From the IMG/VR virus record IMGVR_UViG_3300035698_022351, positions 1 to 29,071 of that record: 29,071 nucleotides of DNA. The stretch is one strand, 5' to 3'. The position numbers and the translations under genes were made by a program. The first letter of the stretch is position 1, and each line of letters opens with the position of its first letter. The notes beneath the pieces were generated by a model. It was not told the origin of the DNA and ran no database searches. It was given only the letters and a program-made list of their open reading frames with translations. Below, piece by piece: positions 3,437 to 12,124 of this stretch. Source of the DNA: a virus.

Positions 3437-3452
3437 TTGAAATTAATTTCAA
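3437..3452. repeat. 16-bp perfect palindrome over the tape measure stop codon
   Basis: The sequence ttgaaattaatttcaa is its own reverse complement and includes the TGA stop of the tape measure gene. It has no loop and no adjacent U-run in the direction of transcription, so it is not a convincing terminator. It may be a protein-binding site or chance in AT-rich DNA. Confidence 0.35.
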
Positions 3453-6373
3453 ACCCCAAACGGATTCAATCTGAAAGCCGACGACATACCCGGCCCATGC
3501 TGAGTTTGAGTCTTAATATCTTCTTTTGCTGTAACTGTCACATCTTTATTATCAATAATAACTGTAACCTCAAGATTAGTAGGTTTAAACTTAAAAGCTT
3601 CACTCATTAATAAGTCTTTTACACTAACACTGCCCGTTGCACCTTCTGCGAATTTCAATATATCTTTTGATCTATTTGCTATATCTTCTGTCGATAGGCC
3701 TTGCCCTAACATTTTTCCCTTCATTGCAGCAACCAATTCTGCTATAGATGTTTTTGTATTTTTATCCTCACCTAAATAATCAGTTGTTGCCCCCTTCATC
3801 ATCTGTTTATAAATATAAATTTTTTCTTTATCTTCATCTGTATGATATCCCCTCCCTAATAGTTTTTTCATTTTTTCTTCTAGGTTCTGAAATCCTTCAA
3901 TTCTTTTTTCCTGTCCTCCTTTTCCTTTTAATTTAGTTCTTATTTTCTCAGAAGTCCCAAGAGCATTGCCTAAAGAAATATCTACCTCTTCACTTCGTCT
4001 CTGCATAAATTCTTTTTTTTCTTCAGCCATTTTGCTCTCTGGAGTTTTTGAAGTTCCAAATAATTTTCTAAAAGCAGCAGGTACACTATATTTCGCAACA
4101 TTACTAACTAGTGTATAAAGTTCAGAAATTGCGATTTGTATTCTTCTTAAATAATAAGAGATATAATTACCAGCTATTTCAATAAGATCTTTTCTTGACA
4201 TAGAGGTAATTTTCATAGCGTCTCTCAATTGCCTTTGGAATTTATCACTTAATTCTCCACCTTTTGCGGTTTCTTTTATAAAATCATCAAAAGCCTTATT
4301 ATATTTATCTTTATCTCCTTTCAATGCTAAAAACCCTTTTTCAAATTCTGCGGCCAATTCAGGGAAATTCTTTTTAAAATCTGCAAAACCAGCGTCCGAT
4401 ATTTCTCCTGTTTCATCCAATACCTTTTTAAGATCTGCATTAGCAGCTAACCATTTTTCTAAGTTTTTTTCAGTTTTAGTAAGTGGTCCCTTTTTCCCAA
4501 CAATTTTAGCTATTTCATTACTTACTCCTTTACCTTTAAACTGACTTTCAAAAGCTGCGTCCATATCTTTAATAATAAAATACATTTCATCTGCTGTTTT
4601 TTCTGATACACCATAAAGCTGTTTAACCATTTCTTTAGAGACACCACGCATATTATCAGGCATACTTCTAAATAATTGAGCAGTAACTCTCAAATTGCCT
4701 CTGGGTCCCATAGTTCTAATTAAATCTCTAATTCCAAAAGGGTCACCCTTTTCAAGTGCTAGAGTTAAATCAGTACCAATTCTACTTTTCTGACTTTCAA
4801 TATGTTTTATTTGTTTTTCTTTCTCCATTGCAGCCTTGTAAGAAAGCTTTCCTGCTTTTATTTCTAATTTTAAAGAATCTTGTCTAGCCGTTAATTCATC
4901 TTTGTTAGCCTTATGCGCGCTTATAACAACATCTTTAATCTTCTTATTATTCCAAAGTACAGCTGCACTAGTAACATTCATATTCTCAAATGTTGAATTA
5001 ATATCTTTGAACGTCTCAAGAAGTTTTGTAGGTCCTATACCTCCTCTACCCATTGCCGCTAAAGCCTCAGATGCATTATTTACAGATACCCCATAAAGCA
5101 TTAAAGCATTGTGAGCCTCTTTTACAGCTCCCCAAAAAGCTGTAGTTTGTATATTAGCAACTTCAGCGAGCCTGGTTACATTACTAAAAGAAGCACCTAT
5201 TTCATTAAAACTCATTTGAAAATCTTCTTTGAATTTACCTATAGTTCTACCCATTGCATCCATTGATTCACCCAAGGCTCGACTAAAAGTAAGAGCCATA
5301 TCCATAGGCCCCTTATAGATAGAACCTCCACTCTCAGCTATTTTCTTTGCATTATTAAGAGCAGAATAGACATCAGTCGTATATTCTGACATTCCTTTAA
5401 GGGTTTCATTAAATTCTTTACCACTCATATAAGTTTTCCCAACAGATTCTATAATATCTTCTCTTAGAGTAGCAAAATTAGCCATACGTCCTTTTATAGC
5501 TTTTTCTTTTTGGCCATAAGTACCTTCAAAATCAGTCAAAGATTTTCCTAAAAATAAAGTTCCTTTAGTATTATTTAAGATGCTTTTATTCATTGAAGCT
5601 GCTGCTTTAGAAGCTCCAAGTATTCCAGCCAGTACCAATCCAACAGCTCCAACGGCTCCTGTAAAAATTGCTTTTGGTATTATTTTATTCAACATTTTAC
5701 CAATAGGTGTTACAAAGCCAGACGCTCCCTCTGTAACTTTAGCACTTACATTAGGAAAAGCTGTTTTAAGCGACTTTTTTAAAAAATTAAACCCTTTGCC
5801 TGTTCCTTGAAGCGCCGTACTAAACCCCTTTAACTCTGTACTTGAATTTGATAATTCTGAAAAAATCTGTTTATAATAACGTGAACTATTTGTTTGTATT
5901 TCCTCTATATGGCCCTCTGTTTTTAATTTAATATCAGACATCAGTTCATCAGTAAGTGTCTGTGAAGGAGCTTTAACATCAACTATTTTTCCACTAAGCT
6001 CGTCTTTTACTTTTCTAGTACCTGCATCTTTCCATATCTTTTCAAATGAATATTTCATTTCTTTGAATAAATTTCTTGCCGCTGCTTGATCTGCTGTTTT
6101 TCCACTTTTTGTAGCCTTTATCTGTGCTTTTTCATATTCATTAAACCTTCCTTTTCCACCCTTTTTACCTCCCTCTTTAAGCCAATCTTGAAGCCCCTTC
6201 TGTTTCAATAGTCTATCATTAGAAGCATTTTCATCTTTTTCTTTAGTTTTCTTAATTGTATTAGAGGCATTTTTAACAGCAGTTGAAAGAGCAGCAACCA
6301 TAGTCTTTAATTCCTTAAAAACTGTTCCAGTATCGTCAAATTTAAGATTTACATCAAGAACTTCAGCTGCCAT
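3449..6373 (-). CDS. Tail tape measure protein
   Basis: 974 residues, the second longest tail-cassette gene. Tape measure proteins set tail length and are threaded through the tube. Evidence: position after the chaperone-like frames and before baseplate genes, great length, helical Lys/Glu/Ala-rich composition, and one hydrophobic stretch at about residues 230-255 (including GAVGAVGLVLAGILGA), typical of the membrane-active segment of this family. The N-terminal 200 residues are highly charged and probably coiled coil. By the usual rule of about 0.15 nm per residue, the tail would be near 145 nm (inference). Start: ATG with AGGAG six bases upstream. The stop is TGA, with TAA two codons later. 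No peptidase or lysozyme domain is visible. Confidence 0.85.
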   Translation of the reverse strand: MAAEVLDVNLKFDDTGTVFKELKTMVAALSTAVKNASNTIKKTKEKDENASNDRLLKQKGLQDWLKEGGKKGGKGRFNEYEKAQIKATKSGKTADQAAARNLFKEMKYSFEKIWKDAGTRKVKDELSGKIVDVKAPSQTLTDELMSDIKLKTEGHIEEIQTNSSRYYKQIFSELSNSSTELKGFSTALQGTGKGFNFLKKSLKTAFPNVSAKVTEGASGFVTPIGKMLNKIIPKAIFTGAVGAVGLVLAGILGASKAAASMNKSILNNTKGTLFLGKSLTDFEGTYGQKEKAIKGRMANFATLREDIIESVGKTYMSGKEFNETLKGMSEYTTDVYSALNNAKKIAESGGSIYKGPMDMALTFSRALGESMDAMGRTIGKFKEDFQMSFNEIGASFSNVTRLAEVANIQTTAFWGAVKEAHNALMLYGVSVNNASEALAAMGRGGIGPTKLLETFKDINSTFENMNVTSAAVLWNNKKIKDVVISAHKANKDELTARQDSLKLEIKAGKLSYKAAMEKEKQIKHIESQKSRIGTDLTLALEKGDPFGIRDLIRTMGPRGNLRVTAQLFRSMPDNMRGVSKEMVKQLYGVSEKTADEMYFIIKDMDAAFESQFKGKGVSNEIAKIVGKKGPLTKTEKNLEKWLAANADLKKVLDETGEISDAGFADFKKNFPELAAEFEKGFLALKGDKDKYNKAFDDFIKETAKGGELSDKFQRQLRDAMKITSMSRKDLIEIAGNYISYYLRRIQIAISELYTLVSNVAKYSVPAAFRKLFGTSKTPESKMAEEKKEFMQRRSEEVDISLGNALGTSEKIRTKLKGKGGQEKRIEGFQNLEEKMKKLLGRGYHTDEDKEKIYIYKQMMKGATTDYLGEDKNTKTSIAELVAAMKGKMLGQGLSTEDIANRSKDILKFAEGATGSVSVKDLLMSEAFKFKPTNLEVTVIIDNKDVTVTAKEDIKTQTQHGPGMSSAFRLNPFGV

Positions 6374-6424: not shown

Positions 6425-6826
6425 TTAATAATCTGTAGTTTTAATTCGGACTCCTCTTTTCATTAGTCCTTCTGGAACTTCACCTGTTTCTTCAAATTGT
6501 TTTTGTGCCCTGGGGTCTACAGTTGGTTGAAACCTATTACGCAAGTTCTCAGAGGTTTCTGGGTCCTGAATACTTCCTAAACTAGAAACTTCTTTATTCT
6601 CAGATGTAATAGCTATATCCTCTAATTCTTCATGAATACCTGTAGGATTAAAACGCTCTATAATTGCTCTATGCTCAGGGTCATGAACATCTAATCCCCC
6701 TAATGGATCACTGGGATTTTTTGTGGCTCCTGAAGCTAAATATTGGGATTTAGAAACCGCATCATGTTCTTCTTGAACAAAAGCACCTCTCATATCAACA
6801 ATATCTTCTCCATCTACTGGAGACAA
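6425..6826 (-). CDS. Small protein of unknown function between chaperone-like genes and tape measure
   Basis: 133 residues if it starts at the TTG at 6826, preceded by AGGAAGG. No ATG is available upstream. The same frame stays open for 28 more codons (6827-6910) back to the TGA ending the preceding gene, and that stretch reads like ordinary protein (for example DKIELRGKKEYYQEG). The product may therefore be an independent TTG-initiated protein or a C-terminal extension of the preceding one made by UGA read-through. The protein is acidic, rich in Pro/Glu/Asn, and has two related segments, DPEHRAIIERFNPT and DPETSENLRNRFQPT. I recognise no family. Its place just before the tape measure gene suggests a role in tail assembly. 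Confidence 0.65.
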   Translation of the reverse strand: MSPVDGEDIVDMRGAFVQEEHDAVSKSQYLASGATKNPSDPLGGLDVHDPEHRAIIERFNPTGIHEELEDIAITSENKEVSSLGSIQDPETSENLRNRFQPTVDPRAQKQFEETGEVPEGLMKRGVRIKTTDY

Positions 6827-6910
6827 TGCACCTTCCTGATAATATTCTTTCTTCCCTCTTAACTCAATTTTGTCATATAAAAGAGTTTCTTTCTCTGGAT
6901 GGTAACCTTC

Positions 6911-7858
6911 TCAATAATTTGGAAGGCCTTCACCTGGAAGATATGTGCCACTGCCATCGCCATATAATTCACTTTGAGACTTAGCCTGATCAATCATTTT
7001 TCTACGTGCAGCTTTTTCTTCCATCTTTTGCATATGGCGATTTTCATATAACTCATCCATGAAAGAATCATGTTTATCCTTTTTCCCCATAACCATATTA
7101 TTAAATTCTTCAAGAAGATCATCTTCACTCTCAATGGGGCGAGACCATTGCTGATCTTTGGGAATGGTCTTTAATAATTTAGCCTGCTTCTTTTTCTCTT
7201 TCTCAGCCTTTTCCATGGCCTCCCATTTTTTAACAGCCTTAGGAGCCCAACAACCTACAATTGCTTTTGTATTAGACCAGAGAAAATCCTGCTCTTCTTT
7301 TTTATCTAACATTCGGTTATAAGCAGTCCACATTTTTTGAACATCGCCATAACCTATTTGATCAGTACCTTGGATACCTGTAACACTAATGCTATTCAAA
7401 GGAAGTTCTTTATGCATGAGCCAGCTACTTCTAGATTCTCCTGTCTCCACATAATCTTTGATTAACTCCATTACTTCCATTTCTTTTCTTGTAAGAGCTG
7501 CAACAGGCTGTAAAGCCGCTTCAAGTATTTCTCTTCTCCAACTAGAAAACATTTTTACAAGATTAGGAATAATTTCATTGCGGATGGGAAAAACATTTTT
7601 TCCATTTATACGATAAACAGCATAGGCAAGAAAATAGGAAAAATAATCTACATTATCTAAAAAGGAATCTGAACCGCCATCAATATAAGAAGCATTTTCA
7701 AATATAAGTCGAAGCTCAATCTGATTTACATTCTTTAAAACGATCTTATGTTTTTCATATGAAAACTCATAGGTTAAAAACCCCTTAAACAGTAGAGCCT
7801 CCAGATCCTTCTTCTGATTCTGTGATATCGGTATTTCCCTTTCCGTCAGGTGATTCAT
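6911..7858 (-). CDS. Putative second tail assembly chaperone
   Basis: 315 residues, Lys/Glu-rich and mostly helical after a short beta-like segment (residues about 24-45, TYEFSYEKHKIVLKNVNQIE) that resembles in pattern the start of the preceding protein (LFTIENLSAKDEAD). In tailed phages, two overlapping reading frames between tube and tape measure genes usually encode tail assembly chaperones; that is the basis for the call. The first 74 bases overlap the end of the preceding gene in another frame. The ATG follows directly after an in-frame TAG, and GGGAG lies nine bases upstream, so independent initiation is possible. The stop is TGA, after which the same frame remains open through the next gene. 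The C-terminal part is charged and probably disordered. Confidence 0.62.
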   Translation of the reverse strand: MNHLTEREIPISQNQKKDLEALLFKGFLTYEFSYEKHKIVLKNVNQIELRLIFENASYIDGGSDSFLDNVDYFSYFLAYAVYRINGKNVFPIRNEIIPNLVKMFSSWRREILEAALQPVAALTRKEMEVMELIKDYVETGESRSSWLMHKELPLNSISVTGIQGTDQIGYGDVQKMWTAYNRMLDKKEEQDFLWSNTKAIVGCWAPKAVKKWEAMEKAEKEKKKQAKLLKTIPKDQQWSRPIESEDDLLEEFNNMVMGKKDKHDSFMDELYENRHMQKMEEKAARRKMIDQAKSQSELYGDGSGTYLPGEGLPNY

Positions 7859-8483
7859 CTACAACTTCTCCCGATTTATCTGGCTTTGGCATGTCAACTA
7901 TTGTACCAACTGGTTTTTCTTTTGCTGCGGCAATTTCCTCTTCAACTAAATCCTGAACATCTCCAGTTTTAGCCATTTGCTGTATCTTTGCCATTGTTTC
8001 TGCATCATCTTTATTTTCAAGTAATCTATCCAATAAAAGCATCCTATCAAGAAAAGTGTCATATTCTGATTTATATTCTTCAGGCAAATCTTTTTTACCT
8101 TCTTCAAGCATTGCCAAATATTCATCCCAGAATTTATTCACTACGGGAGTTTTTAAACTTCCAACTTTCTTTACAAGGAGTTTTCTTATTGTGATTTTTT
8201 CTTCACCAGCTGGATTCGCATAATTAATAACCATGTTAGGATTAAACCTAACATCGTTAATTGCTCTAATAGAATAAGCAAGAATCTTCACTCTATGAAT
8301 GGCAAGAAGTTCTATACCTTCATGCTTGTGAAGACCATTCCATACATCAGCTTCATCTTTAGCTGATAGGTTCTCAATGGTGAAAAGAGTGGAGCCAACT
8401 TTGACTTTCTTTTCAATTTTTGCAATCTCGGAAAGGGATTCAACATCTTTTAAAATATCATAAATTTTGCTCTCATCTGTCAT
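7785..8483 (-). CDS. Putative first tail assembly chaperone
   Basis: 232 residues directly downstream of the probable tail tube gene. Residues 1-180 look folded (KVGSTLFTIENLSAKDEADV near residues 28-47, then helices). Residues 180-232 are low complexity, rich in Asp, Glu, Gly and Ser, like the linker of many phage tail chaperones. These proteins are thought to coat the tape measure protein during tail assembly. The 74-base overlap with the next frame, which is in the +1 (equivalently -2) phase, is the arrangement in which programmed frameshifting makes a fused long form. The frame ends GTT TAA G, where a +1 slip of the valine tRNA to TTT would enter the downstream frame. Start: ATG preceded by GGAG seven bases upstream. 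The function is inferred from position. Confidence 0.65.
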   Translation of the reverse strand: MTDESKIYDILKDVESLSEIAKIEKKVKVGSTLFTIENLSAKDEADVWNGLHKHEGIELLAIHRVKILAYSIRAINDVRFNPNMVINYANPAGEEKITIRKLLVKKVGSLKTPVVNKFWDEYLAMLEEGKKDLPEEYKSEYDTFLDRMLLLDRLLENKDDAETMAKIQQMAKTGDVQDLVEEEIAAAKEKPVGTIVDMPKPDKSGEVVDESPDGKGNTDITESEEGSGGSTV

Positions 8484-8554: not shown

Positions 8555-9331
8555 TTAATAAACTAAATTCGTATTTGATGTAATAGGAATCTGATTGCCA
8601 GAGAAGTTATTAAAACCACTTCTAGAAGCATTTGTATGACCCCTATTTCTACCAAATAGTGTGGATGAAAATTCATTTCCTGTACATGCACATTCGTTCC
8701 TGCTGAAGTCAAGGTCGAATATATCTGTAACAGTTATATCCACCGATTCTGCAACAAGAGTTGTGTCTGAAGTAAAGGAAACTCCATAAGAGTTCATCCA
8801 GCAACCCTGATAGATTGTTACGATAGCTTCGTTGTTTACTGGTTCACATTCACTACATTGTTTACCAGTAGGATCATGAGTAGTCTTATTAAGATTAAAA
8901 CTCGTCTTAACCCTATGTTTATCCTCAACTGCTATAGCTGAAAATATAACCTCATGACGAATATCGAAAGGCCACGCATGATCTTTCAATGCTCTAACAA
9001 AACCATCTACACCAGCGTTATATCCGAATGATTGCATAACATTCGCCAAATACAATGCTGTTCTCTCAACCGAAAGAGAAATAGGATCTGATGGGTCAGG
9101 TACTAGTTCAGCGATCTGATCACCAAAACCGATACCTCTAATCGGATTTACTCCTCTTGAATCGGTATGAGCGAAACTGGATACAAGCCCTACCTGAAGG
9201 AATAAGTTCCCCCCCTGGCCTCCAAGTCCTTCTGTCCCTGAAGCTGGAGCGAATATCCTAACCTTTGAAGAAAGTACTGCACGAGTGTTAGGAGCTATCC
9301 CGGCACGATATGCATAATTGTCAGTATTCAT
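8555..9331 (-). CDS. Probable tail tube protein
   Basis: 258 residues, directly downstream of the sheath gene, where contractile-tail phages carry the gene for the inner tube. The sequence is beta-rich with a phrase like GFGDQIAELVPDPSDPISLS followed by a helix (VERTALYLANVMQSFG), the pattern expected of tube subunits, whose central beta-hairpin and helix build stacked hexamer rings. It is longer than many tube proteins (about 140-200 residues). The extra length holds CSEC near residue 158 and CACTG near residue 215, so a metal site or disulfide is possible. Start: ATG preceded by a G-rich ribosome site (GGGGGTG). The GC-rich stem-loop at 8515-8543 follows the stop. The tube call rests on position and pattern. 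Confidence 0.72.
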   Translation of the reverse strand: MNTDNYAYRAGIAPNTRAVLSSKVRIFAPASGTEGLGGQGGNLFLQVGLVSSFAHTDSRGVNPIRGIGFGDQIAELVPDPSDPISLSVERTALYLANVMQSFGYNAGVDGFVRALKDHAWPFDIRHEVIFSAIAVEDKHRVKTSFNLNKTTHDPTGKQCSECEPVNNEAIVTIYQGCWMNSYGVSFTSDTTLVAESVDITVTDIFDLDFSRNECACTGNEFSSTLFGRNRGHTNASRSGFNNFSGNQIPITSNTNLVY

Positions 9332-9346
9332 CTAGTTTCACCCCCT

Positions 9347-12124
9347 TTATCCTAGCGTAGTTCTTACAGTGTAAGTAACAACAACCCAATTCAATGGCAA
9401 TACAGGAGAGTACTCTGCAGTAACTCTCATAACTGTCGCATCAATTGGATCACGGAATGCCTTAATGCCTCTATAAGCCACAATTATCTCTGAATCTACG
9501 AGAGATCTAAGTAATGAAGCTATCGTCATTTCTACATCAATATGAAGTTCATCTAAGTACTTCCTACCAATGTAACGATCAAGAACAGCTCTGGTTAACC
9601 TTTGAACCTCATCAGTTATAGCTGTAACTGTAGGTTCTCTGGTTAGAACAGTTGACATATCAGTTGTGAGAGCCTGTCTGACCCTTAAGAAAGGATCATT
9701 TTCTTCAATCACAGTATTACCTGCAACTGCAACTTCATTCTTTTCAATTTCATCAAGCTTTCTACCAAGCCTTGAAAAACCAACTATCGATTTGTGAGTC
9801 ATCGGTTCAGCTACATCGTAATCTGGTCTTACAACTACACCAGCCACAGCAGCAGCAAGGAATGGAGATTCAACAATAACCTCGTGACTCCTACCAAGTT
9901 CATCTTCCAGGCGCATTACCGCAGTATCAGGATAAAAGAATACTACCCTTCTGGAGTGATAATTAGCAGCCCTTGTTCTAGCCTCAGCAACCGTAGTTCC
10001 TGATTTATGACCGAGGTAAGCAATACATTCATTTCTATTCTGTATTGAACTCTGGATCTCACAATAGGTCTTTGTAAAAACCTGTACGTCTTCATTCGTT
10101 GTTAACGGTATGATGATTTCGGGTCTTGAATTACCTGAAAGTGGAAACCTTAAGCTCTCTATAGCTTCAATATAATCACTTGAACTAGCATCAGGTGATG
10201 TTGATGTTCGTGCAACCTGTAGCATTACAAGTTGTACTGCACCGTTCCTAAAAGCAAGTTCAGCAGCAAGAGCAAGATTATTACTTACATCTGGAGCACC
10301 GAACAGTAATGTAACCTGACTCATATTGCTAATAAGAACAGCCTCATAATTTTCTTTAGCATAACGATAAGTCACATAATATGTATCGGAAACCGAAGGT
10401 TCAGCCCCTGCCTTGTTATAAGTACAAAGAGCAACGGTATTATCTACGGCTAAACCAGTAGTTGTAGCAATAAAAACTCTCAAACCAGGAATCTGTTGAT
10501 TAGGAATACTGCTTGCTTCAAACTCACCTGCAACCGTTATGGTAAAAACCAATGTATCGCCTGGGGCGAATGAATAAGTTACAGGAGTCAGAATGGATAA
10601 AGCATTTCCTGTCTGCACATCCCTATAAGTCTGACCTATTTCACCTGTGCCATTACTTCCATAAATATCAGAAGATGTTACAGTAAATTCAGTCGGACTA
10701 GTAAAAGTTACAGTTAGTGTTTCATCTACTGAGTATCCAGGAACTGTAAGGCCATCAAAAAGGCTATTCGGCCAGTCAACACCTTCAGTACCAAAATTTG
10801 GATCTGCAACACTATGGCTAGATGTATCTTCAATAAAAGTAGCAAGAAATTTCTGCTTATCATCAGAAAAAACATTATATTTACCAATAGGTGCATTACC
10901 CACAGCAGTTACTTTCATGGTATAGCAATCATCAGTGATTCTGTTATACCAATAAGTAAGATAAACTTTATTACCAGAAGCCGGAGAATTTTTAAGAACA
11001 AATGTTTTATTTGCTCCGCTTACTTCATTAACGGTAACAGGGCCTGCTACAAGAGCAGCTGCGACTGTTGTACCAACATAAGCCTCTACTAAACTCGGAG
11101 AGTCAGTAGCTTTGTCTGTACCAGTACCATTAGTGATTGGGAATATAACTGAAAATTCCTTATTAATATCATCAACTAAACCGGAAACCTCTTCCATGTA
11201 AGATTTATTGTCAACAAGATTAGCACTAATCTCGCCTTCATCAAACTGACTGGAATTGACTGCAGTTACACCTGGGGTTAATAGAAAACCAGTTCCCCAA
11301 CAGATTTTATTGTCCTTGAGTATATAATCTACTCCTTCAACATAATCTGTAGCACCTGGCGTTAAACCAACAGAAAGAATTTTTGAAACATTCTTTTCAT
11401 AAAGCTCATCGCAAGTATCTTGATAGTCATTAAAATAATAAGTTATCCAAACACCCTTACCGACTGCTGGAATACTAACCAGTGTAACAGTACCATTAAT
11501 ACCATCAACTGCTTGCACTGCAACAGGGGCAGCACTAATAAGTTTGTCACCAACTAATACAGCAACATCACTTGTATTAGTAGTTGCTGTGCCATTGCCT
11601 GAACCATCAGTGATTCTATCACGAGCAACTTTAAATTCTTTAACTAAACCATCAACCTGATCACTGACATCTTCATTTTCTATGCGAGTGTCAGTTCTGT
11701 TAATGTAATAACTAGCTTCAACAAGCGCGCCTGCTTCTGGAATAACTCCAAGAAGTATAACACCTGTTTCACCAACTACCTGAATAACAGACACATCTTC
11801 GCCATTGACAAAAACCTGTACATCAACAGGATTATTAGTTATAAGCCCAGTACCATTCCCATCTACAAGAGGTGAATAGTTAGTTACAATAGTATTCTCT
11901 GTGCCTGTAAATTGAGAACTTTCATTCTCAAAAGGTATCAAGTTATCTACTATTGCACTACTACCTCTGATATGCTCTTCTGCTGTTTTTAATAGCATTT
12001 CATCAGCTGTACCGATAAGAGCAGGTAACCTTACACCTAAAGATACTGATAGATCGGACGGGGCCAAGATAGTTTCTGTATAAACTCCTGGTGGAACATA
12101 ATTCCTAAAAGGACCAATACTCAT
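9347..12124 (-). CDS. Contractile tail sheath protein
   Basis: 925 residues. The N-terminus YVPPGVYTETI is the usual sheath opening. The C-terminal 290 residues contain sheath-like core features: a helix-rich part with DEVQRLTRAVLDRYIGRKYL and a final strand region MRVTAEYSPVLPLNWVVVTY that would form the inter-subunit handshake. The sheath surrounds the tube and contracts at infection. The protein is much larger than the roughly 450-700 residues common for sheaths. The extra length lies in residues about 70-560 and includes three related beta-rich repeats (about 75-145, 160-236 and 318-398), each with an NGTG element, a G..G.V.L...P..G..V strand pair and an aromatic YY.N or YWYN end. A fourth beta-rich segment follows (about 430-560). 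Start: ATG with GGGAGG eight bases upstream. Confidence 0.9.
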   Translation of the reverse strand: MSIGPFRNYVPPGVYTETILAPSDLSVSLGVRLPALIGTADEMLLKTAEEHIRGSSAIVDNLIPFENESSQFTGTENTIVTNYSPLVDGNGTGLITNNPVDVQVFVNGEDVSVIQVVGETGVILLGVIPEAGALVEASYYINRTDTRIENEDVSDQVDGLVKEFKVARDRITDGSGNGTATTNTSDVAVLVGDKLISAAPVAVQAVDGINGTVTLVSIPAVGKGVWITYYFNDYQDTCDELYEKNVSKILSVGLTPGATDYVEGVDYILKDNKICWGTGFLLTPGVTAVNSSQFDEGEISANLVDNKSYMEEVSGLVDDINKEFSVIFPITNGTGTDKATDSPSLVEAYVGTTVAAALVAGPVTVNEVSGANKTFVLKNSPASGNKVYLTYWYNRITDDCYTMKVTAVGNAPIGKYNVFSDDKQKFLATFIEDTSSHSVADPNFGTEGVDWPNSLFDGLTVPGYSVDETLTVTFTSPTEFTVTSSDIYGSNGTGEIGQTYRDVQTGNALSILTPVTYSFAPGDTLVFTITVAGEFEASSIPNQQIPGLRVFIATTTGLAVDNTVALCTYNKAGAEPSVSDTYYVTYRYAKENYEAVLISNMSQVTLLFGAPDVSNNLALAAELAFRNGAVQLVMLQVARTSTSPDASSSDYIEAIESLRFPLSGNSRPEIIIPLTTNEDVQVFTKTYCEIQSSIQNRNECIAYLGHKSGTTVAEARTRAANYHSRRVVFFYPDTAVMRLEDELGRSHEVIVESPFLAAAVAGVVVRPDYDVAEPMTHKSIVGFSRLGRKLDEIEKNEVAVAGNTVIEENDPFLRVRQALTTDMSTVLTREPTVTAITDEVQRLTRAVLDRYIGRKYLDELHIDVEMTIASLLRSLVDSEIIVAYRGIKAFRDPIDATVMRVTAEYSPVLPLNWVVVTYTVRTTLG

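Follow-up and report, generated by a model that had tools for sequence, protein, structure and literature searches.

Two overlapping phage genes that probably encode paralogous, separately initiated short and long tail assembly chaperones

Two overlapping genes, ORF1 and ORF2, on the minus strand of a 29,071-base virus record (the whole stretch analysed, hereafter the window) very probably encode two separately initiated, paralogous tail assembly chaperones. ORF1 would provide the short form, comparable to lambda gpG or phage G gp181. ORF2 would provide the long form, joining in one frame a G-like domain to a T-like C-terminal part, comparable to lambda gpGT or phage G gp182. The latter two proteins arise by -1 frameshifting. 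For the myophage clade around the window, which is related by its sheath to phage G, a wider reading is reasonably probable: an ancestral duplication replaced the G/GT frameshift, one copy giving rise to the short chaperone and the other to a long one in a single frame, and the control of their ratio shifted from recoding to two starts. This clade would then be a second lineage of the kind besides the T4-like phages, and the point at which phage G shifts frame still matches a seam in the long protein.

Both genes are located behind the genes for the sheath and the tail tube candidate (Table 1). The window sheath shares about 34% identity with the sheaths of Tunturiibacter phage Tunturi_5 and of LR745208, a record of 485 kb. 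Its identity to the sheaths of phage G, Rhodococcus phage Finch and Mycobacterium phages such as Nappy is about 30% and confined to part of the protein. The Tunturi_5 relative of the tube candidate is annotated as a virion structural protein, and the tape measure candidate is similar to the matching ORF in the related locus L005 (E 1.6e-9). The 3' end of ORF1 reads ACT GTT TAA G, with GTT at 7790-7788 and TAA at 7787-7785, and ORF2 lies in the +1 (or -2) phase relative to ORF1. The open frame of ORF2 begins exactly at ATG 7858, which is also the only ATG, GTG or TTG ahead of the conserved domain of ORF2. All sequence facts of the original prediction, namely the 74-base overlap, the GTT TAA G, the +1 phase, the GGAGG and the ATG at 7858, were confirmed.

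Table 1 Features of the chaperone locus in the window
Feature	Position	Strand	Description
Tail sheath protein	9347..12124	-	925 aa
Tail tube candidate	8555..9331	-	258 aa; named from its location after the sheath; related to Tunturi_5 gp329
ORF1	7785..8483	-	232 aa; predicted short, G-like tail assembly chaperone
GGGAG, Shine-Dalgarno-like	7868..7872	-	9 nt before ATG 7858
ORF2	6911..7858	-	315 aa; predicted long, GT-like tail assembly chaperone with G-like N-domain and helical C-terminal part
ORF2 start ATG	7856..7858	-	TAG directly upstream, in frame
Overlap of ORF1 and ORF2	7785..7858	-	74 nt; ORF1 tail and ORF2 residues 1-24
GGAGG	7798..7802	-	7 nt before GTT; within ORF2 codons Leu-Glu-Ala (by inspection)
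LLFKGF codons	7778..7795	-	conserved motif of ORF2 residues 22-27
GTT TAA G, proposed slip site	7784..7790	-	out-of-frame reading of ORF2 codons Leu23-Phe24-Lys25
Tape measure candidate	3449..6373	-	974 aa; named by position and length

At its other end, ORF2 stops at a TGA (6911-6913), beyond which the same frame stays open for 161 codons (window positions 6425-6913, minus strand). From the off-frame stop frequency, the chance of such an open stretch is about 4e-8. Codon usage leans toward coding from the TGA onward, and the first ATG, GTG or TTG follows 28 codons later. Relatives of this frame were looked for and not found; a premature stop, a sequencing error, readthrough or a separate gene may each account for it.

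ORF1 and ORF2 are predicted to be tail-assembly-chaperone-like proteins, a function that we infer from gene position, model fold and sequence relation. They lie between the tube and tape measure genes, both named by position in the window. Compared with the PDB, the models of both proteins have 2OB9, the tail assembly chaperone of HK97, in first place, with Z 7.0, rmsd 3.5 and 101 aligned residues for ORF1 (next row Z 4.0) and Z 8.5, rmsd 5.6 and 103 aligned residues for ORF2 (next row Z 4.2); these Z values are middling by the structure tool's own note. At 9 and 11% identity to ORF1 and ORF2, respectively, 2OB9 is not a close relative. A Foldseek search of the PDB with the ORF1 model gave no match at E <= 0.001, and 2OB9 was absent among the 50 matches listed. 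Among the predicted viral structures of BFVD, phage G gp182 and gp181 are hit by both models, as is the chaperone of Finch. At the sequence level, the profiles of both families match the G domains of phage G, Finch and Nappy, the ORF2 profile only weakly in the case of Finch and Nappy (8.7 and 7.2 bits). The original prediction of a chaperone-like pair between tube and tape measure is thus borne out by position, by the 2OB9-like fold and by the G-domain matches.

The families have escaped model-based annotation: a scan of 40 members of each against Pfam and PHROGs returned scattered weak hits, with no family hit by more than two members. Single-sequence searches with the window ORF1, ORF2, sheath or ORF3 found no viral-contig relatives, and tblastn in the phage collection gave no match for ORF1 and one for ORF2. 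A scan of genome contigs yielded one sheath locus, L086, in which the profile search found no ORF2 match. Pairwise comparison of ORF1 with the upstream gene of LR745208 gave nothing; a later profile put both in one family. Many ORF1 proteins carry an NPRF motif near the C-terminus (L043, L063, L094, L121, L130, L003 and others); the window protein is without it.

ORF1 and ORF2 appear to share their N-terminal domain and to be paralogous. Alignment of the two family profiles with hhalign, computed after removal of one cross-member and one fragment from the ORF2 side, gave 96.6% (E 6.2e-10, about 110 columns), compared to 0.2% for the tube control; the first-round profiles had given 95.4%. A tree was calculated from 34 of 79 ORF1 sequences, 34 of 78 ORF2 sequences and three known G domains. 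Of 200 bootstrap trees, 88, 90 and 83% kept ORF1, ORF2 and the known G domains, respectively, together as a single group; the corresponding branch supports are 89/82, 93/86 and 82/13, in a tree whose root is not fixed and in which long rows, the ORF1 of the window and that of L087 among them, are unsurely placed. A single duplication before the clade diversified would be expected to give this grouping. The tree does not strongly support ORF1 as distinct from the known G domains.

The comparison with phage G suggests what each copy stands for. The ORF1 profile matches the G of phage G and not its T. The ORF2 profile matches both parts in order: residues 3-111 of G align to HMM positions 6-118 and residues 6-89 of the T frame to positions 122-211, and the two matches adjoin at about the in-frame A_AAA_AAC heptamer that G carries close to its end. 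Neither score was reached by any of 2000 shuffles each. Since ORF1 matches G alone and ORF2 matches G and T in order, the counterpart of the short product would be ORF1, and that of the long product ORF2, where it is encoded in one frame. Phage G's is the only one of the three annotated T frames that matches; those of Finch and Nappy gave no match to the ORF2 profile. The phage G pair gp181/gp182 also occupies the same place before the tape measure gene, gp181 matching ORF1 and the N-domain of ORF2, and the T frame matching the C-terminal part of ORF2. The two systems differ in that phage G, whose gp182 is annotated as a two-piece join, uses one start and, judged by frame phase and length, a -1 shift, whereas in the window each form has its own gene and start, and the long one is in a single frame.

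For the overlap itself, homology and codon usage point to different frames. Scored against a profile built without the window, ORF2 reaches 213.0 bits in full length and 200.2 bits without residues 1-24, that is 12.8 bits from the overlap. None of 1000 shuffles of residues 1-24 equalled their score, nor did any of 270 off-frame peptides. The AlphaFold2 model of ORF2 places a helix at residues 13-25 (block means 95 and 98), and a slip at the GTT would skip residues 1-24, the first helix of the conserved domain. Since the overlap residues carry family homology, translation of ORF2 most likely begins at its own ATG 7858. Codon usage scores 9.2 for the ORF1 frame and -6.6 for the ORF2 frame in the overlap. 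The former ranks at the 90th percentile of true coding windows and exceeds every off-frame window, whereas the latter falls below all 2512 true-frame windows of 23 codons. Both frames look coding, on different evidence, and we read the codon bias as ORF1 setting the codons of a doubly read stretch. The same bias is the main evidence against initiation at 7858, as it also fits an ORF2 frame that is unread in the overlap and leans toward a frameshift.

To characterize the junction in related phages, relatives were gathered by sheath and tube alignments (the best 80 of 420 and the best 80 of 124 viral-contig loci). Iterated profiles identified 106 ORF2-type and 109 ORF1-type open frames, the window and repeated contigs being counted. 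Of the 82 tube loci that continue for more than 3.5 kb beyond the tube gene, 78 contain both gene families, loci on one contig not being merged. Four tube-positive loci (L002, L018, L162 and L165) are without recognisable ORF1 or ORF2; at the chaperone place, L018 has a frame of 198 aa and L165 one of 277 aa, possibly diverged counterparts. The ORF2 set comprised 82 distinct rows, defined as non-identical over -60 to +200 around the domain start, and 81 of them had an upstream ORF, in phases 0, -1 and +1 in 31, 26 and 24 cases. Nine rows were left out (L126, L155, L118, L071, L153, L007, L012, L144 and a second L138 row, which is ORF1 itself). The ORF2 of L118 (5302-6395) and the ORF1 of L155 (5913-7225) are each split over two frames, probably by base errors in the contigs. 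In L126, ORF1 and a complete ORF2 flank a fragment (4117-4386) that matches the C-terminal part of ORF2 and looks like the remnant of a partial duplication.

The 73 remaining ORF1-ORF2 junctions, including that of the window, are nearly random in phase: 30 are in phase 0, 23 in -1 and 20 in +1, counted as sequences and not as independent events, since near relatives were kept. In 59 of the 73, the ORF1 stop has a start codon no more than 10 nt away, a number inflated by counting the start nearest to the stop (the chance level is roughly estimated at about 0.3); for a distance of 25 nt the number is 71 of the 73. Shine-Dalgarno-like words precede only 28 of the 73 ORF2 starts, compared to 335 of 1480 random ORF2 stretches. 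An in-frame X_XXY_YYZ heptamer was found in the last 60 nt of ORF1 in 2 of the 73, where about 4 would be expected from the ORF1 background of 0.055 per 66 nt. Phage G, Finch and Nappy, in whose records the chaperone is a two-piece join, served as positive controls: all three have A_AAA_AAC or G_GGA_AAA near the end of G and a -1 relation between the frames. Measured by the nearest start, the 74 nt of the window are the longest overlap among the 73 junctions, followed by L087 (23), L158 (20), L149 (14) and L090 (14). ATGs at -38 in L137 and -101 in L132 would give overlaps of 38 and 101; in L137 the ATG at -38 is the likelier start, because the domain begins at -5.

The window's long overlap could itself be artificial: an erroneous base close to the 3' end of ORF1 would have carried its frame into ORF2, and the true genes would abut. 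ORF1 is predicted to fold up to about residue 189, and the roughly 43 low-confidence residues that follow (about 190-232), at or beyond the end of the conserved domain, run into ORF2. Most relatives do abut, and L118 and L155 look broken by errors of this kind. The coding character of the ORF1 frame within the overlap speaks against an error, as do the overlaps in L087, L158, L149 and L090, and in L137 if its ATG is the start. We consider an artefact quite unlikely.

The original prediction raised the possibility of a +1 frameshift at the end of ORF1, with the valine tRNA slipping from GTT to TTT, AAG entering the A site and an ORF1-ORF2 fusion as the product. The prfB (RF2) gene has such a +1 site, CTT TGA C. 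The window resembles it in the stop codon in the A site, the Shine-Dalgarno-like word upstream and the +1 phase, but has GTT instead of CTT, TAA instead of TGA and a spacing of 7. Site, phase and GGAGG are all present, the codon usage of the overlap favours the ORF1 frame over that of ORF2, and tailed phages use -1, -2 or +1 shifts for chaperone pairs of this type, -2 being known for phage Mu (according to a passage in PMC5009743). The relatives argue otherwise. The phase is not conserved, and GTT_TAA or CTT_TGA ends none of the other 23 +1-phase rows (24 with the window). The other overlapping +1-phase junctions end in GAT_TGA (L087), TTA_TGA (L158), TCC_TGA (L149), AAA_TAA (L090) and AAA_TAG (L137). 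In L149 the ORF1 end reads TCC_TGA_C (6455-6461), a shift-site type known from antizyme genes. The original prediction had named conservation of GTT TAA G and of the overlap as its check, and separated frames in relatives as counter-evidence. Neither the site nor the overlap is conserved; the relatives' frames are separated by a few bases, often in phase 0 or -1, and in three of the excluded loci (L007, L012 and L144) the order is reversed, the long gene preceding the short one.

The proposed slip site is also explained by ORF2 coding. Members of the ORF2 family start with a helix followed by the LLFKGF motif, encoded in the window by CTA CTG TTT AAG GGG TTT. Shifted by one base, TTT AAG yields TAA, and it is because the conserved Phe-Lys codons of ORF2 create this stop that ORF1 ends where it does. 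Across the family, the out-of-frame reading of the LLFKGF codons has a stop at the aligned place in 23 of 80 rows, the window included, counted irrespective of whether ORF1 uses it; an upstream frame entering ORF2 in the +1 phase therefore tends to stop here. On the sequence, GTT TAA G is no signal in its own right; it is CTG TTT AAG (Leu-Phe-Lys) read one base off. The GGAGG is indeed found 7 nt before the GTT, as the original prediction had it, but as part of ctG GAG Gct (Leu-Glu-Ala), by inspection in the same helix as LLFKGF. Re-pairing from GTT to TTT would keep two of three pairs with a mismatch at the first position, judged by inspection alone. In general, programmed frameshifting would be expected to come with a conserved frame relation and slippery site, and with a downstream frame that has no start and no G-like domain of its own; the phases and heptamer counts show no such conservation, and ORF2 has both. 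With the family homology of residues 1-24 lost in any such fusion, slippage at GTT TAA G is highly improbable.

A -2 shift inside the overlap, as in phage Mu, is permitted by the phase, but the phase is unconserved and the sole in-frame X_XXY_YYZ in the last 60 nt of ORF1, G_GGA_AAT (7839-7833, minus strand), offers by inspection no good re-pairing for -2, which makes this reading the barest of chances. As a -1 site, the same G_GGA_AAT would lead into a dead end of 19 codons (by inspection) and was rejected.

Separate initiation of ORF2 at ATG 7858, which the original prediction had given as its alternative, is favoured by the overlap homology and the junction statistics. In vivo, initiation would be helped by the GGGAG and perhaps be coupled to translation of ORF1, inside whose low-confidence tail the ORF2 start would sit. 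The 74-base overlap would then be the extreme of a junction that is normally a few bases long. GeneTack recognises translational coupling by a downstream start that is no more than 10 nt from the upstream stop (PMC3711429), and the abutting starts and stops of most relatives, those 59 of the 73 included, would fit it. The window differs in that its start lies 74 nt before the end of ORF1. Plain re-initiation would require scanning far backwards, which makes initiation behind GGGAG the likelier route for the window member. The ratio of short to long form would be set by two initiation rates and not by slippage. A minor fusion product may exist besides separate initiation.

The arrangement has a parallel in T4-like phages. 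T4 genes 26 and 51, which we take to be the T4 tail chaperones, are located on opposite strands, in contrast to the tandem, overlapping and co-oriented genes of the window, and neither profile has detectable sequence similarity to T4 gp26 or gp51. In place of frameshifting, some T4-like phages have two separate chaperone genes, one short and one longer, the latter a fusion (PMC10274946, in a passage citing Vladimirov et al. 2022). The window has the same composition, a short gene and a longer single-frame gene that fuses the short and the downstream parts. The two-gene principle is thus already known, and by sequence the window clade appears to be a further instance in another lineage, whereas phage G, Finch and Nappy, more distant by sheath, use a frameshift. 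In open-licence PMC text, no paper on a two-gene chaperone arrangement in this lineage was found among the matches listed; the duplication described in the relevant part of PMC10034513 concerns the tube protein.

According to a passage in PMC5009743, the G/GT frameshift is widely conserved among long-tailed phages. It is the more likely reading that duplication does here what many phages achieve by frameshifting. Tools that join adjacent chaperone frames by default would wrongly join ORF1-ORF2 pairs. The results give a likely identity to unannotated genes of uncultivated phages, in families without a recognisable Pfam or PHROGs model. A clade that apparently makes both forms from two genes would offer a natural comparison for how the ratio of short to long chaperone is set.
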